From: Actinomadura luteofluorescens
GTDB lineage: Bacteria > Actinomycetota > Actinomycetes > Streptosporangiales > Streptosporangiaceae
Direction: 5' to 3'
Assembly (NCBI RefSeq): GCF_013409365.1
Contig: NZ_JACCBA010000001.1
Span: 4,464,001 to 4,528,000 of the forward strand
Length of the DNA: 64,000 nt
Part shown: positions 46,467-62,344 of the stretch, piece after piece
Position numbering within the stretch: the first letter of the stretch is position 1
How the letters are laid out: each line of letters opens with the position of its first letter
The notes under the pieces: generated by a model
What the model was told of the DNA's origin: nothing
The model's input: only the letters and a program-made list of their open reading frames with translations
Databases searched by the model: none
Translations under genes and position numbers: made by a program

Positions 46467-47450
46467 ATGTACGTCGCCGCCCCGTCCCGCCGGCACACGG
46501 TGTCGGTGCTGGTGTTCGACGGCATGGCGCCGTTCGAGCTCGGCACGGTCGTCGAGGTGTTCGGGCTGCCCCGGCCCGAACTGGACGTCCCCTGGTACGA
46601 CCTGCGTGTCTGCTCTCTGGAACGCGGCCCGATGCGGGCGGTGGGCGGTTTCACGATGACCGCCGAGCACGGGCTGGACGCGTTCGCGTCGGCGGACACC
46701 GTGCTGGTCGTCGCCGTCCCCGACGTCCGCGGGGACCCGCCGCCCGAGGTCGTCGCGGCGCTCCGGGAGGCGCACGCGCGGGGCGCCCGCGTGGCGTCCA
46801 TCTGCTCGGGCGCGTTCGCCCTCGCCGCCGCCGGGCTCCTGGACGGACGGGCGGCCACCACTCACTGGCGGTACGCCGACCTGCTCCGCCGCCGTTACCC
46901 GGACGTCCACGTGACGCCCGACGTCCTCTACGTGGACGGCGACGACGTGCTCACCGGGGCGGGCAGCGCGGCGGGGCTCGACATGTGCCTGCACCTCGTC
47001 CGCAAGGACCACGGCGCCCGGGTGGCCAACGCGGTGGCGCGGCGGCTGGTCGTCCCGCCGCACCGGGACGGCGGGCAGGCGCAGTTCGTGGAGGCGGCGG
47101 TGGTCCCGCCGGGGGAGGACGACCCGGTCGCGCGGGCCATGGCGTGGGCGCTTGACCACCTCGCCGAGCCCATCACGGTGGCCCGCATGGCACGTGAGGC
47201 GTGCCTCGCACCCCGTACGTTCCTGCGCCGCTTCCAGCGTCGGACAGGGACGAGCCCGCTGCGCTGGGTGGTCAGCCAGCGCGTCCTGGCCGCGCTGCCG
47301 CTGCTGGAGGAGGGCGGCGCGCCGATCGAGGAGGTCGGCGCGGCGGTCGGCTTCGAGAGCCCGGCGACGTTCCGGCACCACTTCGCCCGGACGATGCGGA
47401 CCTCCCCGTCCGCCTACCGCCGCACCTTCCGCACCGCCGGCGGAACCTGA
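46467..47450 (+). CDS. GlxA-type AraC family regulator
   Basis: Regulator of 327 residues: an N-terminal DJ-1/PfpI-like domain (VLVFDGMAPFELGTVVEVFG, then VASICSGAFALAAAGLLDGR) and a C-terminal AraC helix-turn-helix pair (ITVARMAREACLAPRTFLRR, GAAVGFESPATFRHHFARTM). Divergent from the rhodanese gene, with 108 bases between the starts, so it probably regulates that gene and itself. Confidence 0.92.
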   Translation: MYVAAPSRRHTVSVLVFDGMAPFELGTVVEVFGLPRPELDVPWYDLRVCSLERGPMRAVGGFTMTAEHGLDAFASADTVLVVAVPDVRGDPPPEVVAALREAHARGARVASICSGAFALAAAGLLDGRAATTHWRYADLLRRRYPDVHVTPDVLYVDGDDVLTGAGSAAGLDMCLHLVRKDHGARVANAVARRLVVPPHRDGGQAQFVEAAVVPPGEDDPVARAMAWALDHLAEPITVARMAREACLAPRTFLRRFQRRTGTSPLRWVVSQRVLAALPLLEEGGAPIEEVGAAVGFESPATFRHHFARTMRTSPSAYRRTFRTAGGT

Positions 47451-47976: not shown

Positions 47977-49368
47977 ATGACAGTTCAACCGCAGGCAGCC
48001 CCTGCCGCCCCACGCGCCGGCGGCACCCTCGGAAAGCGGATCCTGGCGTTCGCCGGCCACCCGCTGTTCCGCGGTGATCCCCAGGTCGTCCACGGCCGCA
48101 ACCCCTACCGCCGCATGCTCGCGCCCGGCTCGCTGGCCGAAGCCGACTTCGACCGCCCGCCGGGCCCCGGCGAGTGGGCGGCCCATCGGTCCCTCGCCGC
48201 GCACCGGCTGCTCGGCACCTTCTACGAGGCCGAGACCGTGCTGCTCCCCGAGCAGGGACTCGACGGCCTGTACGAGGATTTCGACCTCTTCTACGGCCCT
48301 GACCTCAAAGAACTCCGGGAAGGGTCCGTCTCGGATCTGGAACGTTTCGCGTTCGGCTGCCTGGACGAGGCCGTGGACGTCAGCGGCGCCGCCACGCCCG
48401 AGGTGCTGGAGGCCTACTTCCAGCACGTCGTCGAGGAGGCCGCCGCCGGGCCCTCGCCCGCGCTGACCGCCATCGCCGGCGCCCGCGACCGCAAGAGCGC
48501 CGCCGACCTGTACCTGGTGCAGCTCGCGCTGGACGGGCTCACCGAGGCCTCCGCGATGTCGCGCAACCTCGCCGGGGCCTACGGTCCCGAGCAGTCCGCC
48601 CTGTTCAAGATATTCATCGACGAGTTCGGCTACGGGGTCTACGACGCCAAGCACACCACGATCTTCGCCAAAATGCTGCGCAGCCGCGCGATGGCGACCC
48701 ATGTGCACGCGTACTGGAACTTCTACCTGACCGGCCCCCTGGCAACGAACAACTACTATTACTACCTGTCCCGCGACCATGCGAAGTTCTTCCGCTACGC
48801 GGGCGCGGTCACCTACGCCGAGGCCGTCTTCGCGCCCGCATTCGTGGAAATGATAAAAGTCTTCCGCGATATATTCGGCGACGCGGTCGATCTGCATTAC
48901 TGCGACGAGCACGCGCACATCGACGAGCACCACGGGCGCATCACCCGGGACCAGGTCCTGCTGGCCCTGGCCGGGCGGCACGGCCCGCGAGTCGTCCCCG
49001 AGCTGCTGCGCGGCATCGCGGAGGCGCGGCTGGTCGGCGGCTGGTTCGAGGACGACACCGCGGCGCAGATCCGCTGGTCCGACGACCTCCCCCGGCACCG
49101 CGAGCTCGCCGGTTCGGCCCGGACCGGGTCCGAGCCTCCGCGGCGCGTCGTGCTGACCGCCGAAAGCCCGTTCGGGACGCGGTGCCATGACGGCGACGTC
49201 GTCCTGGAGGTGGAGCGCGGCGAGGCCGACCTCGTCACGACCCCCACCGGGCCGCCCGAGCGGCTGGCGCGCGGCGAGGCCGTGCTGATCCCCGGCGGGC
49301 GCCTCTACGGGATCCGGCCCGCGACGCCGGAGACCGCCTGCGCGCTCCACGCCGTGCCTCCCGCCTGA
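47977..49368 (+). CDS. SznF-type heme-oxygenase-like diiron oxidase with cupin-like C-terminus (copy 1)
   Basis: Protein of 463 residues. A helical N-terminal domain (1-130) precedes a heme-oxygenase-like diiron domain with the full ligand set: Glu190 in LTEAS, Glu216 and His226 in DEFGYGVYDAKH, and His312, Asp316, His319 in CDEHAHIDEHHGR. Spacing equals that I recall for SznF of streptozotocin biosynthesis (E189, E215, H225, H311, D315, H318). Residues 390-450 look like a small cupin (GEADLV, LARGEAVLIPGGRLYG), but the HxH metal motif of SznF is not seen (RCHDGD instead). It should N-oxidise an arginine-like substrate; the N-N-bond-forming cupin step is doubtful. First gene of the nine-gene operon. 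Confidence 0.87.
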   Translation: MTVQPQAAPAAPRAGGTLGKRILAFAGHPLFRGDPQVVHGRNPYRRMLAPGSLAEADFDRPPGPGEWAAHRSLAAHRLLGTFYEAETVLLPEQGLDGLYEDFDLFYGPDLKELREGSVSDLERFAFGCLDEAVDVSGAATPEVLEAYFQHVVEEAAAGPSPALTAIAGARDRKSAADLYLVQLALDGLTEASAMSRNLAGAYGPEQSALFKIFIDEFGYGVYDAKHTTIFAKMLRSRAMATHVHAYWNFYLTGPLATNNYYYYLSRDHAKFFRYAGAVTYAEAVFAPAFVEMIKVFRDIFGDAVDLHYCDEHAHIDEHHGRITRDQVLLALAGRHGPRVVPELLRGIAEARLVGGWFEDDTAAQIRWSDDLPRHRELAGSARTGSEPPRRVVLTAESPFGTRCHDGDVVLEVERGEADLVTTPTGPPERLARGEAVLIPGGRLYGIRPATPETACALHAVPPA

Positions 49369-49487
49369 GACTCCCCGCTCCCCGACGCTCCCGCCGAGAC
49401 TCCCGTCTCTCCCGCCCCGCCTGACCGCGCCATGCCCAGTGCCGCCCCCGCCCGTCACCGGCCGCGCCCGAAAGACAAGAGGAGCCG

Positions 49488-49850
49488 ATGGCCCGCGTCA
49501 TCGTGATGGATCTGAGCCGGCACAACACCGTGATGGTCGGCCACGACCGCTACTTCGTCCTGCACGAGGGCGAACGGTCGCTGCTCGTCCGCGACCACTG
49601 CCCGCACCGCGGCGGCCCGCTCAGCCTGGCCCGCCGCACCCCGGACGGGCGGCGGCTCAGCTGCCCGTGGCACGGCACGAAGGTCGGTGTCTCCGCCGTG
49701 AAGCGCTCCTGCCTGCCGATGGTGCGCAGCGGCGACGAGGCCGTCGTCGTCCTTCCCGACACCGGCGACCCCGTCTCGGTCATCCACAAGGAGATCCTCG
49801 CCAACCTGCCGCCCGACCCGACCCACGACGAAGGGGCCGAGAGCCGATGA
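49488..49850 (+). CDS. Rieske [2Fe-2S] protein
   Basis: Small protein of 120 residues with Rieske motifs Cys38-Pro-His40 and Cys59-Pro-Trp-His62, enough to bind one [2Fe-2S] cluster, and no membrane anchor. It may be a ferredoxin-type electron donor for the diiron oxygenases on either side, or a Rieske subunit; an oxygenase subunit is absent. It overlaps the methyltransferase start by four bases (ATGA) and lies 119 bases after the first oxygenase gene. Confidence 0.9.
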   Translation: MARVIVMDLSRHNTVMVGHDRYFVLHEGERSLLVRDHCPHRGGPLSLARRTPDGRRLSCPWHGTKVGVSAVKRSCLPMVRSGDEAVVVLPDTGDPVSVIHKEILANLPPDPTHDEGAESR

Positions 49851-50932
49851 ACAGCGCACAGCCGCGGACGCAGGGCGCGATCGCCGGGATCCACGACGGA
49901 ACGGAGCTCGGCGAGTTCCTCAGGTGGGGCCGCGACCTGCACCACCAGGGCCGCTACGAGGACGCCGCCAGGGCCTTCGAACTGATCCTCGGCGTGGACG
50001 CCGACAACCAGGAGGCCCTGATCGGCCGGAACCGGGCCGTCCGGCGCTCGGTCCCCCGCTGGCACTGGGAGATGCTGCACGACGAGGAGCGCGCCGAGCT
50101 GTACGACCGGGCGATCCGGCAGGCGGTTGCGGCCGCCCCGGACGCCCTGGTCCTCGACATCGGCGCCGGGTCGGGCCTGCTGGCGATGATGGCGGCGCGG
50201 GCCGGGGCGCGGGAGGTCGTGGCCTGCGAGGGCCAGCCGTCCGTCGCCGAGACGGCCGCGCGGGTGGTCCGGGTGGCCGGGTACGACGACGCGGTCGGCG
50301 TCGTGTCGAAGATGTCCACCCGCATGACGGTGCCCGGGGACCTGCCGAGGCGCGCCGGCCTGCTGGTCACCGAGATCGTCGACTGCGGCCTGCTCGGCGA
50401 GGGCATCCTCGGGACGATCGCGCACGCCCGCGAGCACCTCCTCACCCCGGACGCGACGATCATGCCGTCGCGGGGGCGGATCCTCGCGCAGCTCATCGAG
50501 AGCGAGCCGCTGCACCGCAAGAACCACGTCGGCAAGCTGTACGGGTTCGACCTCGCGCCCTTCAACCGCCTGTCCACGCTGGAGTACTTCGACTCCCGGC
50601 TGCACCGGCACGAGCACCGGGCGCTGTCGGAGCCGACGACGGTGTTCGAGTTCGACTTCTACACCGCGGACGCGCGGCCGCAGCGCACCGAGCTGACGGT
50701 CCGGCCGACGGCCGCGGGCAAGATGCACGCGATCGCGTTCTGGTTCGAGATGGAGCTGCTGCCGGGGATCGTGGTCGACAACGCGCCCGGCCACGACTCG
50801 CACTGGAAGCAGGCGATCCAGTGCCTGCCCGTCCCGCTGCACGTCCAGCCGGACCTGCCGGTGTCCCTGGTCGCCGCCCACGACGGCGAGTGCGTCCGCT
50901 TCGAGGTGGAGTCCGAGGAGGTGGTCGCGTGA
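49847..50932 (+). CDS. PRMT-like SAM-dependent N-methyltransferase (SznE-like)
   Basis: Protein of 361 residues. A short TPR-like segment (about 31-60, HHQGRYEDAARAFE) precedes a PRMT fold: WHWEMLHDEERAELYDRAI, SAM-binding DIGAGSG (104-110), acidic Glu128, and the double-E loop Glu176...Glu185 (TEIVDCGLLGEG). The beta-barrel half follows. Related enzymes include PRMT7 and, from memory, SznE, which mono-methylates the guanidine of free L-arginine in streptozotocin biosynthesis. Here, flanked by two SznF-type genes, it likely methylates a guanidine of free arginine or a related amino acid; a 50S-protein target is less likely. Overlaps both neighbours by four bases. Confidence 0.85.
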   Translation: MNSAQPRTQGAIAGIHDGTELGEFLRWGRDLHHQGRYEDAARAFELILGVDADNQEALIGRNRAVRRSVPRWHWEMLHDEERAELYDRAIRQAVAAAPDALVLDIGAGSGLLAMMAARAGAREVVACEGQPSVAETAARVVRVAGYDDAVGVVSKMSTRMTVPGDLPRRAGLLVTEIVDCGLLGEGILGTIAHAREHLLTPDATIMPSRGRILAQLIESEPLHRKNHVGKLYGFDLAPFNRLSTLEYFDSRLHRHEHRALSEPTTVFEFDFYTADARPQRTELTVRPTAAGKMHAIAFWFEMELLPGIVVDNAPGHDSHWKQAIQCLPVPLHVQPDLPVSLVAAHDGECVRFEVESEEVVA

Positions 50933-52398
50933 CGGCGATCACGGAGGCGCTCGGCGCACCGGCGCCGGGCATGGTGACGACGAGCATGGCACCGACGCCG
51001 GCCGCGGCGAGCGCCCTCGCCGCCTACTGCTCGCAGCGGATCTTCCAGCCCGGGCCCGAGGTCCTCATCGAGGGCAACCCGTTCCGGCGGCCGATCGGCC
51101 CGCCCGGCGCCGGCGCCGGCGACTTCTCCGTCCCGGCGACGGAGGCGGAGTTCCTCGGCAGCGGCCAGCTCATCGCCGGCCGCGTGCTGTGCAACGCCTA
51201 CGAGAGCGACATGATCCTGCTGCCCGCCGCCGGGCTGGCCTCCGCGAAGGACGACTTCGACCTGTTCTACGGCGACGAGGTGCGGGCGCTGCGCGACGCC
51301 GTCCGGCCGGGCCTGGAGCGGTACGCGTTCTCCTTCCTGGACGACGCCGTCGCCGTCCCGCCGGTGCGAACGCTGGAGGAGCTCCAGGCGTACTTCCTCA
51401 CCGAGGTCGGCGGCGCCGGGGCGCCCGCCGACGCGTCCGGGAGCAACCCGGCGGTGGACCCGGCGGCCGAGGTGACCGGCACCATGCGGCTGATCACCGA
51501 GTGCCGGCGGCCGGAGGAGGCCGCGGCGCTGCACCTGATCCAGCTCGCCCTGGACGCGCTGACCGAGGCGTCGGCCATGGCGCGCAACCTCGGCGGCTCC
51601 TACGGCGTCGAGCAGTCCGAGCTCTTCAAGATCTTCAACGACGAGTTCGGGTACGGGGTCTACGGCGCCAAGCACAGCACGATCTTCAAGGAGATGCTGG
51701 CCAGCGTCGGGCTGCGCACCGACCTGCACGCCTACTGGAACTTCTACCTGACCAGCTCCCTGGTCGGGGTGAACTACTTCAACTGGCTCACCGAGGACCA
51801 CCGCGGCATGTTCCGCTACATGGCGGCGGTGACGTACCTGGAGTGGCTGTTCGCCCAGGGGTTCGCCGACACCGGCGCCATGCTCCGCGCCGTCTACGGC
51901 GACCGCGTGGACGCCAAGTACTGCGACGAGCACGCGCACATCGACGTCCACCACGGGCGGATGACCTACGAGAACCTGCTGCTCGGCCTGGCGCGCACGC
52001 ACGGCGAGCTGGTCATTCCCGAGCTGGTGCGCGGCATCGAGGACACCAAGCTCCTGCTGCGCCTCGGCGACGCCGACTTCCGCGCGCAGATCGCCTGGGC
52101 CGACGGCCTCGACCGGTACACCGAGAAGGGCGCCGCGCTGGCGTCCTCCGCGCTGGACGACGCCGAGACGAGCACGCTCCGCCCGGACAGCCCGTTCTGT
52201 ACCGGCGTGTACGACTCCGACCGGCTCGTGGAGATCACGAGCGGCGAGGCGGACGTGTACGCGTGGGCGACCGGCCACCCGCACCGGCTCGGCACGGGCG
52301 ACGTGCTGCTGGTGCCGCGCGGCCGCCTGCACGGCCTGAAGGCCGCCTCGCCCGAGGCCCGGGTGACCGTTCGAACCGTCGAGAGGACGTCGCGATGA
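50929..52398 (+). CDS. SznF-type heme-oxygenase-like diiron oxidase with cupin-like C-terminus (copy 2)
   Basis: Protein of 489 residues, related to the product of 47977 throughout. Diiron ligands are conserved: Glu213 (LTEAS), Glu239 and His249 (DEFGYGVYGAKH), His335, Asp339, His342 (CDEHAHIDVHHGR). An insertion of about 20 residues sits around 163-184. The cupin-like C-terminus (SGEADVYAWA, LGTGDVLLVPRGRLHG) again has no HxH metal motif. GTG start overlaps the methyltransferase stop. Two oxygenases may oxidise different nitrogens or different intermediates of the same pathway. Confidence 0.87.
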   Translation: MTAITEALGAPAPGMVTTSMAPTPAAASALAAYCSQRIFQPGPEVLIEGNPFRRPIGPPGAGAGDFSVPATEAEFLGSGQLIAGRVLCNAYESDMILLPAAGLASAKDDFDLFYGDEVRALRDAVRPGLERYAFSFLDDAVAVPPVRTLEELQAYFLTEVGGAGAPADASGSNPAVDPAAEVTGTMRLITECRRPEEAAALHLIQLALDALTEASAMARNLGGSYGVEQSELFKIFNDEFGYGVYGAKHSTIFKEMLASVGLRTDLHAYWNFYLTSSLVGVNYFNWLTEDHRGMFRYMAAVTYLEWLFAQGFADTGAMLRAVYGDRVDAKYCDEHAHIDVHHGRMTYENLLLGLARTHGELVIPELVRGIEDTKLLLRLGDADFRAQIAWADGLDRYTEKGAALASSALDDAETSTLRPDSPFCTGVYDSDRLVEITSGEADVYAWATGHPHRLGTGDVLLVPRGRLHGLKAASPEARVTVRTVERTSR

Positions 52399-53513
52399 CC
52401 GAGAACGCACCTTCGGCCGAGCGGCCCGCCCCGGTCGGCTCGTACAACGAGTGGGACCCGCTGGAAGAGGTGATCGTCGGCGTCGTCGACGGCGCCGCCG
52501 TCCCGCCGTGGCATCCGGCGATCGAGGCGACCGTCCCGCCCGAGGCGTGGGACTTCTACCGTCGCAACGGCGGCGGGGGGTTCCCGCGGGAGCAGGTCGA
52601 GGCGGCCCGCGAGGAGCTCGACGGTTTCGCGTCGATCCTGGAGGGCGAGGGCGTGACCGTCCGGCGCCCCGACCCGGTCGACCAGTCCCGCCCGTTCGGG
52701 ACCGCCGACTGGACGTCCACCGGCGGCTCGTCGCACACCTTCCCCCGCGACATCGCGCTGGTCGCCGGCGACCAGATCGTCGAGGCGACGATGGGCTGGC
52801 GGTCGTACTACTTCGCCACCCACCCGTTCCGGACGATCTTCAAGGACTACTTCCGGCGCGGCGCCCGCTGGGTCGCGGCACCGAAGCCACAGCTCACCGA
52901 CGCGTCCTTCAACCCGGGCTACGCCGCCGCCAAGCCGGCGACCATGTCCCCGGACGACCCGTTCCCGGACGCCACCTCCGTCATCACCGAGTTCGAGCCG
53001 ATCGTGGACGCGGGCGACTTCATGCGGTTCGGCCGCGACATCCTCGTCCAGCGCAGCCACGTCACCAACCGGTTCGGCATCGAGTGGGTGCGGCGGCTGC
53101 TCGGCGGCGAGTTCCGGGTGCACGAGGTCGCCTTCGCCGACGACCACCCGATGCACATGAACGCCACGTTCGTCCCGCTGCGTCCCGGCCGCGTGCTGAT
53201 CAACCCCGAGCGGGTGCCGGAACTGCCGGAGATGTTCGCCGACTGGGACGTGCTGGTCTGCCCCGAGCCCGCCATCCCCGCCGACCAGACCATGTACTTC
53301 TGCAGCCGGTGGATCGCGATGAACACCCTGATGCTCGACCAGGAGCGGATCTTCGTCGAGGCGCAGGAGACCGAGCTGCTGCGGCTGCTGGAGAAGGAGG
53401 GGTTCACCCCCATCCCCGTCCCGTTCCGCACGGTCAACACCTTCGGCGGCGGCTTCCACTGCGCCACCCTCGACGTCCGCCGCCGCGGCGGGCCCGAGGA
53501 CTACTTCTCCTGA
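52395..53513 (+). CDS. Arginine-type amidinotransferase
   Basis: Enzyme of 372 residues of the AGAT/StrB1/CyrA family: Asp206 to Asp208 in DAGDFMRFGRD, His254 in MHMNATF and nucleophile Cys356 in GGGFHCATLD. It moves the amidino group of arginine (or a modified arginine) to an amine acceptor and releases ornithine. The position after His254 is Asn256, where I recall Asp in characterised relatives, which might alter donor use. Start overlaps the upstream stop (ATGA). Its product, a guanidino compound, could be the substrate of the methyltransferase and oxygenases. Confidence 0.9.
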   Translation: MTENAPSAERPAPVGSYNEWDPLEEVIVGVVDGAAVPPWHPAIEATVPPEAWDFYRRNGGGGFPREQVEAAREELDGFASILEGEGVTVRRPDPVDQSRPFGTADWTSTGGSSHTFPRDIALVAGDQIVEATMGWRSYYFATHPFRTIFKDYFRRGARWVAAPKPQLTDASFNPGYAAAKPATMSPDDPFPDATSVITEFEPIVDAGDFMRFGRDILVQRSHVTNRFGIEWVRRLLGGEFRVHEVAFADDHPMHMNATFVPLRPGRVLINPERVPELPEMFADWDVLVCPEPAIPADQTMYFCSRWIAMNTLMLDQERIFVEAQETELLRLLEKEGFTPIPVPFRTVNTFGGGFHCATLDVRRRGGPEDYFS

Positions 53514-53534
53514 CAACCTGCGATCGAGGTCCGC

Positions 53535-54803
53535 ATGTCCTATGACCCGCCCGCGGGCGGCGAGCGTCCGCTCCTTCTCCTGGTCGCGAGCAGCTACTGG
53601 GTCTACCGCAAGTACATCCTGGAGTCGGTGTCGCAGCGGTACCGGCTCTGGCTGCTCAACCCGTCACCGGCGAGCTGGGAGGAGCCCTACATCGCCGGGC
53701 ACACCGTCGTCGACTGCCTCGACCTCGAAAAGCTGACGGCCGCGGCGCGCGACGTCGCCCGCGACCACGAGGTCGCCGGGGTGTTCTGCTACGACGAGGT
53801 CTACATCGAGACGTCCGCGCACCTCAGCGCGGCGCTCGGGTTCCCCGTCCTCGACCCGGGCGCGGTGGCGCGGTGCCGGGACAAGTCCGCGACGCGGGAG
53901 GCGCTGCGGGACGCCGGGTTCCCGCAGCCCGCGTCCCGTGCCGTGGCGTCGCTGGAGGAGGCGCGCGCGTTCGCCGCCGGGATCGGGTACCCGATCATCG
54001 TCAAGCCGCGCAACCTCGGCGGCAGCCTCGGCCTCAGCAAGGTCGAGAGGCCCGAGGACCTGGACGCCGCGTTCGCGCTCACCGACGGGACGCGGATGGG
54101 CGGCATCCGCCAGTTCGAGGACTACGTGGTCGTGGAGGAGTTCCTCGAAGGCCCGGAGATCTCCGTCGAGTGCGTCCTGTTCCAGGGGGAGTGCACGCCG
54201 CTGATCGTGGCGCGCAAGGTGCTCGGGGGCAGCGGCGACCTGGCGTTCGAGGAGATCGGCCACGACGTCGACGCGGGCGACCCGCTGCTGTTCGACGCCG
54301 GGTTCCACGACATGCTCACCCGGGTCCACGCGGCGGTCGGGTTCACCGACGGGGTCACGCACATCGAGTTCAAGCTCACCCCGGACGGCGCGAAGCACGT
54401 CATCGAGATCAACGTCCGGCTGGGCGGGGGGATGATCCCCTACCTCGGGCTGCTGACCTCCGGCGTCGACGGGCCGCTCGCGGCGGCCGACGTCGCGGTG
54501 GGGCGCCGCCCCGCCCCGCGGTTCCCGAAGCCGCGCAGGGCCGCGTCCATCCGGTTCGCCTATCCCCCGTTCGACATGGAGGTCACCTCGGCGACCGCGC
54601 ACCGGGAGCTGATACGACCCCCCGTCGCGGAGGTCGAGGTCGGGACGCAGCCCGGCGCGCGGGTGCGGCTGCCACCGCACGGCCTGGCCCGCACCGGCTA
54701 CGTCATCGCGATCGGGGAGACCCTGGAGGAGACCCGCGCCGCGATCCCGGACGCCGGACGGTACTTCACCTTCGAGGGCGTCCCGCTGGAGCCGGCGCCA
54801 TGA
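53535..54803 (+). CDS. ATP-grasp ligase (carboxylate-amine ligase)
   Basis: Protein of 422 residues with an ATP-grasp fold: SYWVYRKYILESV in the N-terminal domain, ATP-binding YPIIVKPRNLGGSLGLSKVE, VVEEFLEGPEISVE, and Mg-binding HVIEINVRLGGGMI. It resembles L-amino acid ligases (BacD/PurK-like) that join two amino acids as an acyl-phosphate intermediate. It begins 21 bases after the amidinotransferase and overlaps the transporter start by four bases. Confidence 0.88.
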   Translation: MSYDPPAGGERPLLLLVASSYWVYRKYILESVSQRYRLWLLNPSPASWEEPYIAGHTVVDCLDLEKLTAAARDVARDHEVAGVFCYDEVYIETSAHLSAALGFPVLDPGAVARCRDKSATREALRDAGFPQPASRAVASLEEARAFAAGIGYPIIVKPRNLGGSLGLSKVERPEDLDAAFALTDGTRMGGIRQFEDYVVVEEFLEGPEISVECVLFQGECTPLIVARKVLGGSGDLAFEEIGHDVDAGDPLLFDAGFHDMLTRVHAAVGFTDGVTHIEFKLTPDGAKHVIEINVRLGGGMIPYLGLLTSGVDGPLAAADVAVGRRPAPRFPKPRRAASIRFAYPPFDMEVTSATAHRELIRPPVAEVEVGTQPGARVRLPPHGLARTGYVIAIGETLEETRAAIPDAGRYFTFEGVPLEPAP

Positions 54804-56161
54804 GCTCCGCCGACTCCCCCGAGCCCCCGGCTCCTCCGGAACACCCGACGATCATCGCCACGCTGCGGGAGATGAGCGGGACCGTCCGGATCCTCGTCCT
54901 CGGCAACCTGATCATCAATCTGGCGGCGTTCCTCAACGCGTTCCTGGTGCTGTTCCTCACCGACAGGGGCTTCACCGCGTGGGAGAGCGGCGTGGTGCTG
55001 ACCGCGCTGATGATCGGGCGGATCTCCGGGTCGGCGGCGGGCGGCGCCGCCGCCGACCGGTTCGGCTACCGGCGCGCCATCATCGGCTCGATGGCCGGCA
55101 CGGCGGTGCTGACCGCGGCGCTCGTGCACGTCCCGAACGTGTGGACCGGCGCGCTGGTCGCCGGGGGAGCGGGCCTGACCGCGCAGGCGTACCGGCCCGC
55201 CGCGCTCGCCTGGGTCGTGGAGCTGACGCCGAAGGACCGCCAGGTCATCGTGTTCTCGGTGCTGCGGCTGACCTTCAACGTCGGAACGACGGTCGGCCCG
55301 GTCGGCGCCGCGCTGCTGCTGGCCTACTCCTCCTACGACGCGCTGTTCTACGTGGACGCGGCGACGTCGCTGGCGTTCGGTGTCCTCGCCTACGTGGCGC
55401 TGCGCTCCAACCCCGAGCCGGCCGGCAGGGAGGCGGCGTCGAGCGACGGCAAGCGCGCCGGATACGGGCAGGTGTTCGCCGACCGGCGGTTCATGCTCGT
55501 CGTCCTCGGCCTCTTCGTCACCGCCATCGCCTACATCCAGAGCTCGGCCGCGCTGCCGCTGTTCGTCACCGGCTCCGGGCACACGGAGAAGGTGTACGCG
55601 GCGCTCCTCTCCGTGAACGGGTTCATGGTGATCGCGTTCGAGGTGCTGCTGTCGAAGTGGACGCAGCGGCTGCCGATCGGGGTGCCGATGGCGCTCGGCA
55701 TGGCGATGCTGGGCGTCGGCCACCTCGTCTACACCGGGCCGTCCCCCGTCACGATGCTGATCCTCGCGACCGTGGTGTGGACCGCCGGCGAGATCATCGC
55801 GGCGCCGTCGATGATGGCCTACCCCGGCCTGGTCGCGCCGTCCGCGCTGCGCGCCCGCTACATCGCCGCGGCGACCGTCCCGCAGCACGTGGGCTACGCC
55901 GTCGGCCCCATGATCGGGATCGCCGCGTGGCACGCGTGGGGCTCGGGCGTGTGGGTGCTCACCGGGGCGTGCGGGCTGCTCGCCGGCCTCCTCGTGCTCG
56001 CCGGGGCCGGGGTGTCGCGGCGGCGGCCCGGCGAGGACGAGCCCGCGAAGGAGCCCGGGGAGCCGCCCGCCATGGCCGCGAGCCGGCCGGGCGCGGCGGA
56101 CGAGGCGGGCGCGCCGGACTCCCCGGGGCCGCAGGGCCAACCGACGGATCAACCGACATGA
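54800..56161 (+). CDS. Major facilitator superfamily exporter
   Basis: Transporter of 453 residues with twelve membrane segments and an A-type motif GGAAADRFGYRRAII between segments two and three. A charged/Pro-rich tail of about 50 residues follows the last segment. It resembles drug:H+ antiporters of the DHA1 type and most likely exports the final product and protects the producer. It overlaps both ATP-grasp genes by four bases, so it belongs to the pathway. Confidence 0.9.
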   Translation: MSSADSPEPPAPPEHPTIIATLREMSGTVRILVLGNLIINLAAFLNAFLVLFLTDRGFTAWESGVVLTALMIGRISGSAAGGAAADRFGYRRAIIGSMAGTAVLTAALVHVPNVWTGALVAGGAGLTAQAYRPAALAWVVELTPKDRQVIVFSVLRLTFNVGTTVGPVGAALLLAYSSYDALFYVDAATSLAFGVLAYVALRSNPEPAGREAASSDGKRAGYGQVFADRRFMLVVLGLFVTAIAYIQSSAALPLFVTGSGHTEKVYAALLSVNGFMVIAFEVLLSKWTQRLPIGVPMALGMAMLGVGHLVYTGPSPVTMLILATVVWTAGEIIAAPSMMAYPGLVAPSALRARYIAAATVPQHVGYAVGPMIGIAAWHAWGSGVWVLTGACGLLAGLLVLAGAGVSRRRPGEDEPAKEPGEPPAMAASRPGAADEAGAPDSPGPQGQPTDQPT

Positions 56162-57438
56162 AGGTGAAGAGCATGAGCAAACCCGTCGTCGCCGTCGTCC
56201 GGCCGTTCAGCTCGTCGGCGCTGCTCGCGCCCGCGCTGCGCGAGGCCGGCTTCAGCCCCGTCGCCGTCATGGACTACGACGGGCCGGCGCTGGCCCCCAT
56301 GCAGGGGGCCTACGACCCCGCCGCCTACGACGCGGTGATCAACCACCACGGCGACGTCGAGGAGACCGTCGCGCGGCTGGGCGCGCTCGAACCGGTCGCG
56401 ATCTTCCACGGCGCGGAGGCCGCGCTGGAGCTGGCGCAGCGCTGCACCGACGCCCTCGCGCCCGAGCTGTCCAACGACCCCGCGCTGATGGACGCCCGGC
56501 GCCACAAGTACGCGATGCACCAGGCCGTCGCCGCCGCGGGGCTGCCCGTCCCCCGGCAGATCTGCGCCTCCGACCCCGCCGAGGTCGCCGCCTGGATCGA
56601 GCGCGAGAAGCTCGCCGGGGTGGACCTGGTCATCAAGCCCCCGGCCAGCGCGGGCACGGTCGGGGTCAGCCGCGCGCCCGGCGGGCAGGGCTGGCGGGAG
56701 CTGTTCGACCGCATGATCGGCACGCGCGACAAGCTGGGCGTGCTCGCCGACGAGGTGCTCGTCCAGGAGCAGCTGACCGGCACCGAGTACGCGATCGACA
56801 CGATCAGCCACCGGGGCCGCCACTCGATCACCGACATGATCAAGTACCGGCGGGTCCCGTTCGGCGAGGGCATCGCGGTGTACGACAGCGTCGAGTGGCT
56901 GCCCTACGACCGGGACGCCTACGGCGAGCTCATCGACTATGGCCTCGCCTCCCTGGACGCGGTCGGGCTGCGCAACTGGGCCGCGCACACCGAGATCATG
57001 ATGACCCCGGACGGGCCCCGGCTGCTGGAGGTCAACGCGCGGCTCTCCGGTGCGGGCAACCCCGCGGTCACCTACATCGCGTCGGGGGAGAGCCAGGTCA
57101 CCCGGACGATCGACCTGGTGCGCGGGCGCGGGCCGGAGCTGCCGCCCGGCTACACGCTGCGCCGCAACGTCATGGCCGTGTTCCTGATGTCGCACTCGAC
57201 CGGGATCGTGCGCAACGCCGAGATCTACGACCTGGCCCGCGAGCTGCCGAGCTACCACTCGCCCGTCGCGGTCGTGCGCACCGGCGACCACGTGGACGCC
57301 AGCACCGACATCTTCGCCAGCATGACGATGGGCTACATCATCCTCGCCCACGAGGACCCGGAGCAGATCCACGCCGACCGCGAGGCCATCCGCAAGATCG
57401 AGAAGGACCTGGTCGTCGACGTGGAGGGGGCCGGCTGA
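56158..57438 (+). CDS. Second ATP-grasp ligase
   Basis: Protein of 426 residues of the ATP-grasp superfamily: KPVVAVVRPFSSSALLAPAL start, NDPALMDARRHKYAMHQAVA helix, ATP loop DLVIKPPASAGTVGVS, LVQEQLTGTEYAIDT and LLEVNARLSGAGNPA. Sequence differs strongly from the first ligase, so it probably couples a different amino acid. ATG 56158 overlaps the transporter stop; ATG 56173 is an alternative start. Its stop overlaps the next start by one base (TGATG). Confidence 0.88.
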   Translation: MKVKSMSKPVVAVVRPFSSSALLAPALREAGFSPVAVMDYDGPALAPMQGAYDPAAYDAVINHHGDVEETVARLGALEPVAIFHGAEAALELAQRCTDALAPELSNDPALMDARRHKYAMHQAVAAAGLPVPRQICASDPAEVAAWIEREKLAGVDLVIKPPASAGTVGVSRAPGGQGWRELFDRMIGTRDKLGVLADEVLVQEQLTGTEYAIDTISHRGRHSITDMIKYRRVPFGEGIAVYDSVEWLPYDRDAYGELIDYGLASLDAVGLRNWAAHTEIMMTPDGPRLLEVNARLSGAGNPAVTYIASGESQVTRTIDLVRGRGPELPPGYTLRRNVMAVFLMSHSTGIVRNAEIYDLARELPSYHSPVAVVRTGDHVDASTDIFASMTMGYIILAHEDPEQIHADREAIRKIEKDLVVDVEGAG

Positions 57439-58721
57439 TGGTCACCGCGAAGTACATGGAGGCGGCCGGCGAGGGGCCACTGCGCGACGTCATGACCGAG
57501 GCCGAGTACCCGCCCGTCTTCGCCGAGGCCTGGGGCAGGTACCTGGCGACGCGGCCGCTGCTGTCGTCGGAGACGCGGACGCGCCAGGCGGCGGACGACC
57601 TCGCCGGACTGTTCCGGCTCATGGCGTCCCTGCCGGACCGGCTGTTCGACGGCGACCGCCGCAGGTTCTGCGCCGCGGTCGGCGCGGACGCCCGCCGGAC
57701 CGACCTCATGACGCGATTCGACGCGGAGCCGATCCTGTACGGGCGGGCCGACCTCTACGACGACGGATCCCGGTTCCGGCTGCTGGAGTTCAACATCGGC
57801 AGCGAGCTGGGCGGCGTCGACATGAGCGAGGCCAACCGCTGCCTGCTGGCCCACAAGGAGTTCGCCGCGTTCGCCGACGAGCACGGCCTGTCCACCGTCG
57901 ACACGCCCGCGGCCATCGCGCGGCAGTTCGTCCAGGCCACGCAGAAGGAGGCGCCCGTCGTCGCCACGCTTGAGGCCGTCGACGGGATGGCGGCGTACGA
58001 GTCGCTGCACCGCTCCTTCCAGGAGTCGATGAAGCGGTACGGCATCGAGCTGCTCATCGGTGAAGTGGACCAGGTGCAGGAGAAGGACGGACGGCTGTAC
58101 CTGCACGACCGTCCGCTCGACCTCGTCCTGCGGTACTTCTCCGCCCACCAGGTGGCGCGGGACCCGCGCAACGACAAGCCCGTCGAGGCCGTCATGCGCG
58201 CCTACGAGGAGGGCAAGGTCGTCCTGTGGACTCCCCTGACGGCGTCCATGTTCTCCTACAAGAGCTGCCTGCCGCTCGTCTCCGATCCCGACATGCGCGC
58301 GGAGCTGTCGCCGGACGAGAACGCCCTGATCGACCGCATCCTCCCGTGGACGCGGACCCTCACCCCCGACCTGGCCGACCAGGTCCGGGCCGAGCGGGAC
58401 GAGCTGATCCTCAAGCCGGTCGCGGGCCTGTCGGGGAGGGGCATCCGCGTGGGCTGGGAGCAGACCGACCGCGAGTGGGCCGAGACGGTCGCCGGGTGCC
58501 TGAAGGAGGACTACATCGTCCAGCGCCGCGTCGTCCCCGCCGCCGAGCCGATGCTCAACGACGAGACCGGCGCGGTCGAGGACTGGCTGGGCGTGTGGGG
58601 CCTCTTCGTCTTCCCGGACGGCTACGGCGGCGCGTTCTGCCGGGCCGTCCCGTCCGGCGGGGCGTCGGTCGTCAACCTCGGCACGAAGGGCGCGCGGGTG
58701 ACCTCCGCGTTCCATTACTGA
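57438..58721 (+). CDS. Circularly permuted ATP-grasp-like ligase (glutathionylspermidine synthase-like)
   Basis: Protein of 427 residues. Features such as RFDAEPILYGRADLYDDG, RLLEFNIGSELGG and ELILKPVAGLSGRGIRVGWE resemble the C-terminal synthetase fold of glutathionylspermidine synthase-like and circularly permuted ATP-grasp proteins, which make amide bonds to amines or amino acids. The family match is moderate. It is the last gene of the operon: its stop is followed within ten bases by a strong terminator. Confidence 0.75.
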   Translation: MVTAKYMEAAGEGPLRDVMTEAEYPPVFAEAWGRYLATRPLLSSETRTRQAADDLAGLFRLMASLPDRLFDGDRRRFCAAVGADARRTDLMTRFDAEPILYGRADLYDDGSRFRLLEFNIGSELGGVDMSEANRCLLAHKEFAAFADEHGLSTVDTPAAIARQFVQATQKEAPVVATLEAVDGMAAYESLHRSFQESMKRYGIELLIGEVDQVQEKDGRLYLHDRPLDLVLRYFSAHQVARDPRNDKPVEAVMRAYEEGKVVLWTPLTASMFSYKSCLPLVSDPDMRAELSPDENALIDRILPWTRTLTPDLADQVRAERDELILKPVAGLSGRGIRVGWEQTDREWAETVAGCLKEDYIVQRRVVPAAEPMLNDETGAVEDWLGVWGLFVFPDGYGGAFCRAVPSGGASVVNLGTKGARVTSAFHY

Positions 58722-58727
58722 TCGCCG

Positions 58728-58788
58728 GGAGGGCGCCGCGGGCCGGGCTTGGCAATGCCTGCCAGATTCGAGGCGCCCTCCGTTTTTG
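58728..58788 (+). terminator. Rho-independent terminator of the biosynthetic operon
   Basis: GGAGGGCGCC pairs with GGCGCCCTCC (58772-58781), with an inner TGGCA/TGCCA stem, followed by GTTTTTG. A true U-tract is rare in this window, so the operon end is well marked. Confidence 0.85.
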
Positions 58789-58866: not shown

Positions 58867-59715
58867 ATGCACAGACGCCTTCTCGGCGCGCTCGCCGCCG
58901 CGGCCGTCGGCGCCGCCGCGCTGACCGCCGGAGCCGCCCCCGCCTCCGCCGCCCCCGCCCCCGCGCCCGCCGCCCAGGTCAAGGCGGTCGACTTCACCGG
59001 GATCGTCGCCCTGAGCAACTGCTCCGGCTCGCTCGTCCGCACCCCGACCGCCGCCGACAGCGACCCGGCGCTCGTGCTCACCAACGGCCACTGCTACGAG
59101 GGCGGCATGCCCAGCGCCGGACAGGTCATCACGAACCGGGCGTCCAGCCGCACGTTCAGCCTGCTCAACTCCAGCGGCTCGGGCACGCTCGGCACGCTGC
59201 GCGCCAACAGGGTGCTGTACTCCACCATGACCGACACCGACGTGACCCTGTACCGGCTCAGCCAGAGCTACGCGGCCATCCAGCAGTCCTACCGGACGCC
59301 GGCGCTCCAGCTCTCGCTCACCCGCCCCACGGCGGGCGCCGACGTGCGCGTGGTCTCCGGCTACTGGCGCAGGATCTACTCCTGCAACATCGACGGCTTC
59401 GCCTACCGTCTCAAGGAAGGGGAGTGGACGTTCAAGGACTCGATCCGCTACACCTCCACCTGCAACGTCATCGGCGGCACGTCGGGCTCCCCGCTCGTCG
59501 ACGCCTCGACCGGCAAGGTCGTCGGGGCGAACAACACCATCAACGAGGACGGCGGCCGCTGCACGCTGAACAACCCGTGCGAGGTCGACCAGTCCGGCAC
59601 CGTCACGGTGCACCCGAACATCGGATACGCCCAGCAGACCTACACCCTGGCCGCCTGCATCGCCCCCGGCAGCGTCATCGACTTCAACCGCGCGGGCTGC
59701 ACCGTCCCCCGGTGA
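58867..59715 (+). CDS. Secreted trypsin-like serine protease
   Basis: Exported S1-type protease of 282 residues. A Sec signal (1-28, AAVGAAALTAGAAPASA) is followed by catalytic His75 in TNGHCYEG, Asp125 in TDTDVTLY and Ser206 in GGTSGSPL. Five to seven cysteines beyond the signal suggest two or three disulfides. Ser/Asn-rich loops are typical of actinomycete extracellular proteases. It stands between the biosynthetic operon terminator and the cyd operon, so it is unlikely to be part of either. Confidence 0.88.
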   Translation: MHRRLLGALAAAAVGAAALTAGAAPASAAPAPAPAAQVKAVDFTGIVALSNCSGSLVRTPTAADSDPALVLTNGHCYEGGMPSAGQVITNRASSRTFSLLNSSGSGTLGTLRANRVLYSTMTDTDVTLYRLSQSYAAIQQSYRTPALQLSLTRPTAGADVRVVSGYWRRIYSCNIDGFAYRLKEGEWTFKDSIRYTSTCNVIGGTSGSPLVDASTGKVVGANNTINEDGGRCTLNNPCEVDQSGTVTVHPNIGYAQQTYTLAACIAPGSVIDFNRAGCTVPR

Positions 59716-59908: not shown

Positions 59909-61327
59909 ATGGACACCGTCGACATCGCCCGGTGGCAGTTCGGGATCACCACCGTCTACCACTTCCTCTTCGTCCCGCTGACGATCGGGCTCTCCGCGCT
60001 GGTCGCGGTGCTCCAGACGGCCTGGCTGCGGACGGGGAAGACGGCCTACCTGCGCGCCACCAAGTTCTGGGGCAAGCTCTTCCTGATCAACTTCGCGATG
60101 GGGATCGTCACCGGCATCGTGCAGGAGTTCCAGTTCGGCATGAACTGGAGTGACTACTCCCGGTTCGTCGGCGACGTCTTCGGGGCGCCGCTCGCCATCG
60201 AGGGCCTGCTCGCCTTCTTCGTCGAGTCGACCTTCCTCGGCCTGTGGATCTTCGGCTGGGACCGGCTGCCCAAACGCCTGCACCTCGGCTGCATCTGGCT
60301 CGTCCACATCGGGACGCTGCTGTCGGCGTACTTCATCCTCGCCGCCAACTCCTGGATGCAGCACCCCGTGGGCTACCGGATCGACCACGAGTCCGGGCGC
60401 GCCGTCCTCACCGACTTCTGGGCCGTCCTGACCAACTCCACCCAGCTCGTCGCGTTCCCCCACACCATGACGGCGGCGTTCGCCACCGGCGGCATGTTCA
60501 TGGCCGGCGTCAGCGCCTGGCACCTCGCCCGCCGCAAGAACGTCGAGGTGTTCCGGCCGTCGCTGAAGCTCGCGCTGGTCGTCACCGCGATCGCCTCCAT
60601 CGGCGTCGCGATCACCGGCGATCTCCAGGGCAAGGTCATGACCGAGCAGCAGCCGATGAAGATGGCCGCCGCGGAGGCGCTCTACGAGACCGAGCGGCCC
60701 GCCTCCTTCTCGATCTTCACGGTGGGGACGCTGAACGGCGACGAGGAGGTCTTCGGCCTCAAGGTGCCGCGGTTGCTGTCGTTCCTCGCCACCGGCACCC
60801 TCGACGGCGAGGTCAAGGGGATCAACGACGTCCAGGCCGCCGAGGAGGCGCGCTACGGCGCCGGCGACTACCGGCCGGCGACCCCCGTCATCTACTGGAA
60901 CTTCCGGGTCATGTCCGGCGCCGGGATCGCCATGGCGCTGGTCTCGCTGGCCGGGCTGTGGCTGCTGCGCCGCGGCAGGCTCCCCTCCAGCCCCTGGGTG
61001 TACCGGATCGGCGTCCTGTCGCTGACCCTGCCCTTCATCGGCAACTCCGCCGGATGGATCTTCACCGAGATGGGGCGGCAGCCCTGGTCGGTGTTCGGCG
61101 TGCTCAAGACCTCGGCCAGCGTCTCGCCCGGGGTGTCGGCGTCGTCGATGCTCATCTCGGTCGCGTCGCTGACCGCGCTCTACGGCGTCCTGCTGGTCAT
61201 CGAGACGGGGCTGATGCTCAAGTACGCCAAGGCCGGGCCGCCGTCGGAGGACGAGGTGCTGCCGCCTCCGTCCGACGGTCCCGGGTCCGACTCCGACTCC
61301 GAGCGCTCGCTCGCGTTCGCCTACTGA
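59909..61327 (+). CDS. cydA: Cytochrome bd ubiquinol oxidase subunit I
   Basis: Membrane subunit of 472 residues with nine segments. Conserved parts include RWQFGITTVYHFLFVPLTIG (haem-ligand His18), GIVQEFQFGMNWSDYSRFVG and the quinol loop region near QQPMKMAAAEALYE. The Q-loop is short, as in Gram-positive bd oxidases. CydAB reduces O2 with quinol, giving respiration at low oxygen. It is followed after nine bases by cydB. Confidence 0.95.
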   Translation: MDTVDIARWQFGITTVYHFLFVPLTIGLSALVAVLQTAWLRTGKTAYLRATKFWGKLFLINFAMGIVTGIVQEFQFGMNWSDYSRFVGDVFGAPLAIEGLLAFFVESTFLGLWIFGWDRLPKRLHLGCIWLVHIGTLLSAYFILAANSWMQHPVGYRIDHESGRAVLTDFWAVLTNSTQLVAFPHTMTAAFATGGMFMAGVSAWHLARRKNVEVFRPSLKLALVVTAIASIGVAITGDLQGKVMTEQQPMKMAAAEALYETERPASFSIFTVGTLNGDEEVFGLKVPRLLSFLATGTLDGEVKGINDVQAAEEARYGAGDYRPATPVIYWNFRVMSGAGIAMALVSLAGLWLLRRGRLPSSPWVYRIGVLSLTLPFIGNSAGWIFTEMGRQPWSVFGVLKTSASVSPGVSASSMLISVASLTALYGVLLVIETGLMLKYAKAGPPSEDEVLPPPSDGPGSDSDSERSLAFAY

Positions 61328-61336
61328 GGGCCGACC

Positions 61337-62344
61337 ATGGAACTCACCACCGCCTGGTTCATCATCATCGCCTTCCTGTGGACGAGCTACTTCTTCCTGG
61401 AGGGCTTCGACTTCGGCGTCGGGATGCTGCTGCCCGTGCTCGGCCGCGACGACGTCGAGCGCCGCGTCGTCATCAACACCATCGGCCCCGTCTGGGACGG
61501 CAACGAGGTGTGGTTCATCGTCGCGGGCGCCGCCACCTTCGCCGCCTTCCCCGAGTGGTACGCCACCCTTTTCAGCGGCTTCTACCTGCCGCTCCTCGCG
61601 ATCCTCCTCGCGCTGATCATCCGCGGCGTCGCGTTCGAGTACCGCGGCAAGCGCGACGACGCCCGCTGGCGGTCCCGCTGGGACAAGTGCATCTTCTGGG
61701 GCAGCCTCGTGCCCGCCTTCGTGTGGGGCGTCGCGTTCGCGAACATGGTGCGCGGCGTGCCGCTGGACGCCGACCACGAGTTCGTCGGCTCCCTCGGCGA
61801 CCTCCTCAGCCCGTACGCGCTGCTCGGCGGCCTCACCACAGTGACCCTGTTCCTCCTGCACGGGGCGGTGTTCCTCGCGCTCAAGACGTCCGGGAGCATC
61901 CGGGCGCGGGCCCGCCGGATCGCCGGCCTCGCCGCGGTCGCCGCCGTCCTCGCCGGGGGCGCCTTCCTGCTGATCACCCAGCTCCAGTACGGCGAGCCCG
62001 TCACCTGGCTCACCGCCGCGGGCGCCGCCGCAGGCCTGCTCGCCGCCGCGGCGGCGAACCGGCGCGGCCGCGAGGGCTGGGCGTTCGTCGGGACCGGCGC
62101 CGCCATCGTGCTCGCCGTCGCGACCCTGTTCCTGTCGCTGTTCCCGGACGTCCTGCCGTCCACCCTCGGCACCGGCGGCCTGACCACCGCGAACGCCGCC
62201 TCGTCCGGCTACACCCTGAAGATCATGACCTGGGTGGCGGCCGTGTTCACCCCGATCGTGATGATCTACCAGGGCTGGACGTACTGGGTCTTCCGCAAGC
62301 GGATCGGCACCTCCCACATCCCCATGAAGAAGCCGGTCGCATGA
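61337..62344 (+). CDS. cydB: Cytochrome bd ubiquinol oxidase subunit II
   Basis: Membrane subunit of 335 residues with eight to nine segments; opens with the conserved SYFFLEGFDFGVGMLLP and has INTIGPVWDGNEVWFIVAGA. It forms the bd oxidase with CydA. Stop overlaps cydD start by four bases (ATGA). Confidence 0.95.
   Translation: MELTTAWFIIIAFLWTSYFFLEGFDFGVGMLLPVLGRDDVERRVVINTIGPVWDGNEVWFIVAGAATFAAFPEWYATLFSGFYLPLLAILLALIIRGVAFEYRGKRDDARWRSRWDKCIFWGSLVPAFVWGVAFANMVRGVPLDADHEFVGSLGDLLSPYALLGGLTTVTLFLLHGAVFLALKTSGSIRARARRIAGLAAVAAVLAGGAFLLITQLQYGEPVTWLTAAGAAAGLLAAAAANRRGREGWAFVGTGAAIVLAVATLFLSLFPDVLPSTLGTGGLTTANAASSGYTLKIMTWVAAVFTPIVMIYQGWTYWVFRKRIGTSHIPMKKPVA

Follow-up and report, generated by a model that had tools for sequence, protein, structure and literature searches.

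Does an operon that encodes two oxygenases of the SznF type lead to a product with an N-N bond? This question is raised by nine intact open reading frames at positions 47977-58721 (+ strand) of a 64,000-nucleotide stretch, hereafter called the window, of the 9.62 Mb, single-contig genome of the soil actinobacterium Actinomadura luteofluorescens. An original prediction, made from the letters of the window, had described a guanidine N-methylation and N-oxidation module linked to ATP-grasp ligases, leading to an N-oxidised or N-N-bonded peptide. We computed the identities of the genes, the catalytic residues that they have retained or lost, their conservation and the site of insertion. With a probability of about 0.6, we consider the operon to be biosynthetic and a relative of the streptozotocin (szn) type, in which arginine would be N-methylated and N-hydroxylated without the N-N step and ligated into a small exported peptide. 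Published work is cited by its PMC identifier.

The two oxygenases, HDO1 and HDO2 (HDO, SznF-like oxygenase), both matched SznF over nearly the whole length (E values of 1e-97 and 9e-86, respectively) and were 45% identical to each other; the nearest named relative of HDO1 was from Actinomadura mexicana DSM 44485 (96%). As diiron ligands we scored E189, which we take to be an additional ligand in SznF, together with E215, H225, E281, H311, D315 and H318, and in the cupin domain the metal triad H407/H409/H448 as well as Y459. The last six of these diiron residues are needed for SznF activity, and substitution of H407, H409 or H448 leads to accumulation of the dihydroxy intermediate, with no product (PMC11705231). 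Both window proteins contained the complete diiron set (EEHEHDH), in agreement with the prediction of two SznF-type diiron oxygenases. At cupin positions 407/409/448/459, we found R/H/Y/C in HDO1 and G/Y/H/V in HDO2, so that neither has the triad on which product formation by SznF depends.

The same combination was found in other genomes. All seven diiron ligands were present in 44/44 copies of this type (type A, HDO1 and HDO2 taken together) and the HHH triad in 0/44, the letters being mostly R-H-Y in HDO1 and mostly G/D-Y/H-H in HDO2; the cupin letters of one of these copies, the HDO1 of L049, are unreliable because of a frameshift in the cupin. Tyr459 was kept in only two HDO1 copies (L043 and L046) of this set, and in six HDO1 rows of a broader 97-row set, which shares genomes with the former, so that the counts are not additive. 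A smaller operon type, B, had the diiron ligands in 7/7 and the triad in 0/7 of its copies, compared with HHH in 40/44 proteins of the canonical side (SznF included). The exceptions on the canonical side were L104, L111, L117 and L118, of which L104 and L117 group together and both also carry E215D; these altered triads suggest further, repeated losses of the N-N step. In A. viridilutea (G018; L049/L071), the frame of HDO1 changes inside the cupin while the HDO domain is left open, either through a natural loss or through an assembly error.

The cupin was also the most diverged domain. With domain borders that we placed on SznF numbering, the median ratio of cupin to HDO divergence amounted to 3.04 for HDO1 (clade A1), 2.66 for HDO2 (clade A2) and 2.21 for type B, versus 0.75 in 29 canonical actinobacterial proteins. 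Of four segments, the cupin had the lowest mean identity in HDO1, HDO2 and type B, and the highest in the 29 canonical proteins. This agrees with a relaxed constraint on a domain whose reaction would have been lost. A quick tree of 94 rows (SH-aLRT support only, midpoint root) recovered A1, A2, the canonical side and type B as separate groups, all with a support of 100, and placed the window proteins in A1 and A2, outside the canonical SznF clade (44 rows, 100). Three of the 97 rows had been left out, namely L127 (partial), the HDO1 of L071 (run-on after the frameshift) and the HDO2 of L077, which had been mis-extracted (27 aa) and on re-reading showed EEHEHDH and cupin letters R/Y/H. Long branches meet in this tree (A1 with A2, and B with the canonical side) and how A1, A2 and B branch from one another is not settled by it; therefore, we claim neither an order for the duplication of the HDO nor that the cupin site was lost only once. 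A canonical SznF encoded elsewhere in the genome, which could have supplied the N-N step, was rejected as an explanation, since the only HDO-type matches at E <= 1e-30 were these two; no search was made for a cupin encoded on its own.

In both HDO1 and HDO2, the part that forms the N-N bond thus seems to be lost. Because the diiron ligands are kept in every A-type copy, the triad is missing from every one and no other domain is as diverged as the cupin, we predict the product to be a small peptide containing N-methyl-N-hydroxy-arginine, and not an N-nitroso compound. These findings lend no support to the N-N-bonded alternative of the original prediction. Several points weigh against our interpretation. 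Conserved cupin columns persist in A1 (24/79) and A2 (31/79), versus 48 in the canonical proteins, and point to a possible structural or altered role of the cupin. Metal could also still be bound by a site that is altered only in part, as H409 is kept in HDO1 and H448 in HDO2. Moreover, the substrates of the operon enzymes are themselves predicted.

The other proteins were identified through Pfam or structure matches. The Pfam families found in the operon were Haem_oxygenas_2 (twice), Rieske, PRMT_C, ATP-grasp_4 (twice) and MFS_1, and this bore out the predicted Rieske protein (Rsk), PRMT-like methyltransferase (MT) and MFS transporter. The best matches of MT among solved structures were PRMT7 and PRMT9. 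It has the S-adenosylmethionine (SAM) motif, the double-E loop and the HW motif, the last two of which were kept in 66/66 methyltransferases; all three have established roles in PRMTs, where the glutamates of the double-E loop bind the guanidine. The predicted arginine-type amidinotransferase (AT), on which the Pfam scan gave no match, was recognised by its similarity to human AGAT (E value 2e-108, 47% identity), HsvA and SxtG. Its catalytic C356, H254 and D205 were kept in 41/41 sequences, of which one is AT itself and 40 are homologues drawn from genome sets that overlap. The pocket of AGAT was not kept, the changes being N300H, D305N and S354C (H251, N256 and C303 of AT) at positions with recognised roles in AGAT. 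By analogy, AT may act as a deiminase, as does MboE, a putative amidinotransferase of the mangotoxin pathway that is a peptide deiminase (PMC13185094).

A named search gave 139 stretches encoding relatives, the best 80 of which were kept and corresponded to 74 distinct loci. A Rieske protein with the full motif (CxH...CxxH) was encoded at 70/74 of these, the others being L061 and L081, which are cut by contig ends, L104 and L127. Because of this recurrence, the Rieske protein is a candidate electron donor for SznF-type enzymes generally. Of the papers searched, a single one mentioned both Rieske and SznF, and its remarks on Rieske dealt with a different enzyme. The mangotoxin enzymes are called perhaps the first characterised pair of an HDO and a dedicated redox partner (PMC13185094).

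Two of the three predicted ATP-grasp ligases (AG1-3, ligases 1-3) were clear, and ligase 2 matched a solved L-amino acid ligase at 1e-46. The third reached CP_ATPgrasp_1 at 1.7e-4 with 21.2 bits, below the gathering score of 23.1, and is a probable circularly permuted ATP-grasp ligase. Among its 22 aligned relatives, nine matched CP_ATPgrasp_2 and five GSP_synth, and its profile matched the solved ligase Cp1B (E value 1.7e-5). E117, N119 and K326, presumably the invariant E/N and K of ATP-grasp enzymes, were invariant in 22 sequences, the family match itself being weak. The nearest named relative of ligase 3 was from A. citrea (97%); another relative (P0008, 83%) is publicly named as Mycobacterium tuberculosis and is probably a mislabelled or contaminated record.

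For the pathway, we infer the substrates, the hydroxylation sites, the order of the steps, the role of AT and the product. The PRMT-like enzyme would N-methylate the guanidine of arginine. With electrons from the Rieske protein of the same operon, HDO1 and HDO2 would hydroxylate guanidine nitrogens. As neither cupin has its metal triad, the rearrangement that forms the N-N bond would not follow and the hydroxyguanidine would be kept. Ligase 2, with ligases 1 and 3, would join the modified arginine to other amino acids; AT would add or edit a second guanidine, either transferring an amidino group to an amine or deiminating a peptide like MboE; and the MFS protein would export the small peptide. 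One or two hydroxyls may remain in the product, given that the dihydroxyarginine formed by ChmN was gone after one week at room temperature (PMC11177257). Homology and residue checks support the module first proposed, with guanidine N-methylation and N-oxidation, ATP-grasp ligation and no nonribosomal peptide synthetase (NRPS) in the operon.

We also determined how widely the operon occurs. Among 149 relatives, 27 encoded SznF-type proteins (E <= 1e-30), 26 of them belonging to the same genus (own genome included) and one to the same family. This operon type was present in 23/65 same-genus genomes (own included), in two of which (G050 and G060) it is broken by contig ends. The smaller type is carried by G028, the canonical one by G053 and by G054. 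When 396 genomes were sampled evenly across the phylum, none except the window's own gave a match at E <= 1e-40. Loci of the same type outside the genus include, among the best 80 of the 139 stretches, those of Actinoallomurus (L070), Dactylosporangium (L076) and a Micromonosporaceae metagenome-assembled genome (MAG; L077).

The order of the genes was the same in 22 further same-genus loci, two of which are cut by contig ends, and because the genes recur together we do not attribute the set to chance. MT, HDO2, the MFS protein and ligase 2 were found in 22/22 of these loci, the Rieske protein in 21/22 and HDO1 in 20/22, the misses lying at contig ends. AT was absent from L050 and L051. Ligase 3 was at least 62% identical in 17 loci, diverged (30-32%) in two and absent from three; in these last three, ligase 1 is diverged as well (41-42%). 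In the Dactylosporangium locus, AT and ligase 1 are both missing and the genes for ligases 2 and 3 are on the other strand. The constant part is therefore formed by MT, both HDOs, the Rieske protein and ligase 2, while the variable genes look like peptide tailoring. Since both HDOs are present in all three loci without AT (L050, L051 and L076), neither seems to depend on the product of AT.

The smaller type B consists of HDO, Rieske and MT genes without these ligases. In Streptomyces smaragdinus (L079:9977-14077) and S. lateritius (L080:10010-14134), adjacent HDO, Rieske, MT and transporter genes are found and the cupin triad is lost; the transporter of L079 is an amino acid permease by Pfam. 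This four-gene module may export free modified arginine. In Kutzneria (L082:10052-15518), an AMP-binding (adenylation-type) enzyme is encoded two genes beyond HDO-Rieske-MT, and use of the same building block by an NRPS is possible. The same three genes occur in L085 and L086. A Blastocatellia MAG (L106) encodes an HDO with an intact cupin triad, a Rieske protein, an MT and an amidinotransferase 54% identical to that of the window.

The layout of the operon is given in Table 1. Nearly all junctions had been predicted to overlap by 1-4 bases. This was found for 6/8 of them, with 4-base overlaps at Rsk/MT, MT/HDO2, HDO2/AT, AG1/MFS and MFS/AG2 and a 1-base overlap at AG2/AG3; the remaining two are gaps, of 119 bases (HDO1/Rsk) and 21 bases (AT/AG1). 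At the predicted U-rich terminator, there is a hairpin with a 10-bp stem followed by GUUUUUG. Since 12/200 shuffles were equally stable (z -1.79), its stability is unexceptional for its composition, and a simple terminator scan did not report it. A scan for sigma-70 promoters found 0, versus 0.3 expected.

Table 1. Genes of the operon and 3' hairpin, in window coordinates
Feature	Position	Strand	Remarks
HDO1, SznF-like oxygenase, 463 aa	47977..49368	+	diiron ligands intact; cupin triad positions R-H-Y
Rieske [2Fe-2S] ferredoxin-like protein (Rsk), 120 aa	49488..49850	+	CxH...CxxH; candidate electron donor
PRMT7/9-like arginine N-methyltransferase (MT), 361 aa	49847..50932	+	double-E loop and HW motif
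HDO2, SznF-like oxygenase, 489 aa, GTG start	50929..52398	+	diiron ligands intact; cupin triad positions G-Y-H
AGAT/HsvA/SxtG-family amidinotransferase (AT), 372 aa	52395..53513	+	Cys356/His254/Asp205 kept
ATP-grasp ligase 1 (AG1), 422 aa	53535..54803	+	nearest NCBIfam model PRK02186
MFS transporter, 453 aa, likely exporter	54800..56161	+	Pfam MFS_1
ATP-grasp ligase 2 (AG2), 426 aa	56158..57438	+	nearest NCBIfam models PRK07206/DdaF; L-amino acid ligase-like
Probable circularly permuted ATP-grasp ligase 3 (AG3), 427 aa	57438..58721	+	weak family match
Possible terminator, 10-bp GC-rich stem, then GUUUUU	58728..58787	+	hairpin folding versus shuffles

The borders of the operon were examined by comparison with eight cydA loci without it, seven from genomes with no SznF-type match and one from G028, in which the smaller type lies elsewhere. 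In these loci, cydA is preceded by a DEAD helicase gene (8/8), an AraC-type regulator (6/8) and a protease gene (5/8), and the distance from helicase to cydA is 0.45-4.4 kb, versus 14.2 kb in the window, where the operon lies in between. The same arrangement was found in 11/22 fetched carriers. In five of the 22 (L036, L040, L041, L045 and L052), one flank only is seen within the stretch fetched or the contig, and six (L039 and L047-L051) have other surroundings, with cydAB upstream in L047 and L048. The insertion site is thus common, not universal. Because they stand together in genomes without the operon, the AraC/DJ-1 regulator (46467-47450), the protease gene (58867-59715) and the downstream cydAB genes for cytochrome bd (59909-62344) were rejected as parts of it and are regarded as neighbours.

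How does the operon compare with known systems? The closest are the szn-type loci, whose gene content (MT, HDO, Rieske, two ATP-grasp ligases, MFS) we defined from Streptomyces L092, L096 and L097, with HDOs 93, 92 and 88% identical to SznF, respectively. All six gene kinds have homologues in the window, with identities of 43-46% (MT), 37-38% (HDO), 43-46% (Rieske), 48% (ligase 1), 42-44% (MFS) and 43-44% (ligase 2). The order in the three loci is MT, HDO, Rieske, ligase 1, MFS, ligase 2. Five of the six genes are collinear with MT-HDO2-ligase 1-MFS-ligase 2 of the window; the Rieske gene stands behind an HDO gene in both, yet in the window it lies ahead of MT, so that the full order is not shared. 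In L097, an alpha/beta hydrolase gene stands before ligase 2 and a LysE translocator gene after it, both absent from the window. The window in turn has a second HDO, the amidinotransferase and a third ligase, and has lost the cupin triad. The coupling to ATP-grasp ligases, a trait of szn-type loci, is therefore not new here. No described cluster had been thought to have this exact set: no identical published cluster and no described product were found among the literature matches listed, but six of the gene kinds occur together in the szn-type loci.

Chalkophomycin-type homologues of SznF (ChmM) resemble the window proteins in that one catalytic domain of the SznF family has decayed in both. 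In their cluster of the sequence similarity network, part of a study that collected 426 SznF homologues, all members but one have lost the HDO and kept the cupin, the reverse of the window, and the neighbours are NRPS or polyketide synthase genes (PMC11177257). Proteins with the HDO kept and the cupin lost are not described in the available text of that paper, and window-type sequences may form part of clusters that it leaves unnamed. The mangotoxin (mbo) operon shares with the window an HDO, a dedicated redox partner, ATP-grasp ligases (two in mbo), an amidinotransferase-like enzyme and a small arginine-derived peptide. It differs in that MboA forms an alkyne, the redox partner is a flavin/Fe2S2 reductase and no methyltransferase is named in the text available; the same paper counts at least 25 unique clusters that pair an HDO with an ATP-grasp ligase, which may include ours (PMC13185094). 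The argolaphos (alp) cluster places N5-hydroxyarginine in a short peptide and holds an ATP-grasp enzyme of the PRK02186 family, the nearest to ligase 1 of the window, but it uses a YqcI/YcgG (heme) oxygenase instead of an HDO and a phosphonate partner, and the text available names no arginine methyltransferase. Mangotoxin and argolaphos are precedents that speak for the proposed pathway. In the saskemycin cluster, an SznE-like arginine methyltransferase (31% to SznE) is encoded near an amidinotransferase gene, but the product is a glycolipid, and SznF and Rieske are absent from the wording of the main text (for these two systems and the HDO review cited below, jointly PMC13108848, PMC12637814 and PMC8976061). 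We also rejected a known Actinomadura metabolite as the product: by term search, the main text of a review that covers about 230 Actinomadura compounds (PMC10951976) contains none of guanidin, arginine, nitroso, ATP-grasp or streptozotocin.

Three other explanations were weighed. One or both HDOs might perform another chemistry on an arginine peptide, such as a desaturation like that of MboA, with AT serving as a peptidyl-arginine deiminase. The similar parts of the mangotoxin pathway, the departure of AT from AGAT at positions 300, 305 and 354 and the presence of two HDOs, which suggests two different reactions, speak for this. Yet both HDOs match SznF full length and have the seven-ligand set with four carboxylates that a review ascribes to SznF, whereas three carboxylates are seen in 3/4 MboA chains (PMC13185094), and a PRMT-like methyltransferase accompanies them in 22/22 same-genus loci. 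We consider this explanation unlikely, though the strongest of the three. It is less probable still that the altered cupins, or a composite HDO1/HDO2 site, use other ligands for the SznF rearrangement, so that an N-N bond forms after all and the peptide becomes an N-nitroso compound or a diazeniumdiolate. The cupins of the window are of full length, conserved columns are found in both clades, and the szn-type relatives that have six gene kinds in common with the operon keep an intact triad; against this stand the complete absence of the triad from the A-type copies, the near-complete loss of Tyr459, the divergence of the cupin and the frame shift inside it in G018.

Finally, the product could be mainly metal-binding or related to nitric oxide (NO), i.e. 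a hydroxyguanidine chelator or a donor of NO or HNO, and not an antimetabolite peptide. Cytochrome bd, the genes of which follow the operon in many carriers, tolerates NO. The cydAB neighbourhood is, however, also found in the eight operon-free loci, and none of the nine genes is one for siderophore transport. Relatives of SznF do serve in the synthesis of diazeniumdiolate metallophores (PMC11177257). We regard this last explanation as very improbable.

The N-hydroxylating pathway without N-N bond formation is thus the one that we prefer. Whether it defines a separate class within the SznF family seems to us evenly balanced. In such a class, guanidine N-oxygenases with inactive cupins would act in pairs, with a Rieske ferredoxin dedicated to them, and share out the hydroxylations. 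The reaction would end at a stable N-hydroxy-N-methyl-guanidine, and the product would belong to a new, NRPS-free family of Actinomadura peptides. What appears undescribed among the literature matches listed is the oxygenase pair itself, with the diiron site kept and the cupin triad lost. Such a pair would mirror the chalkophomycin-type homologues, in which the cupin is kept and the HDO lost. As a possible physiological electron donor for SznF-type enzymes, the Rieske protein can be tested. If our interpretation is correct, one branch of a family known for N-N bonds would have evolved to retain the oxygenase without the N-N step, natural enzymes would allow each of the two SznF activities to be studied on its own, and Actinomadura would hold an unexplored class of small arginine-derived peptides.

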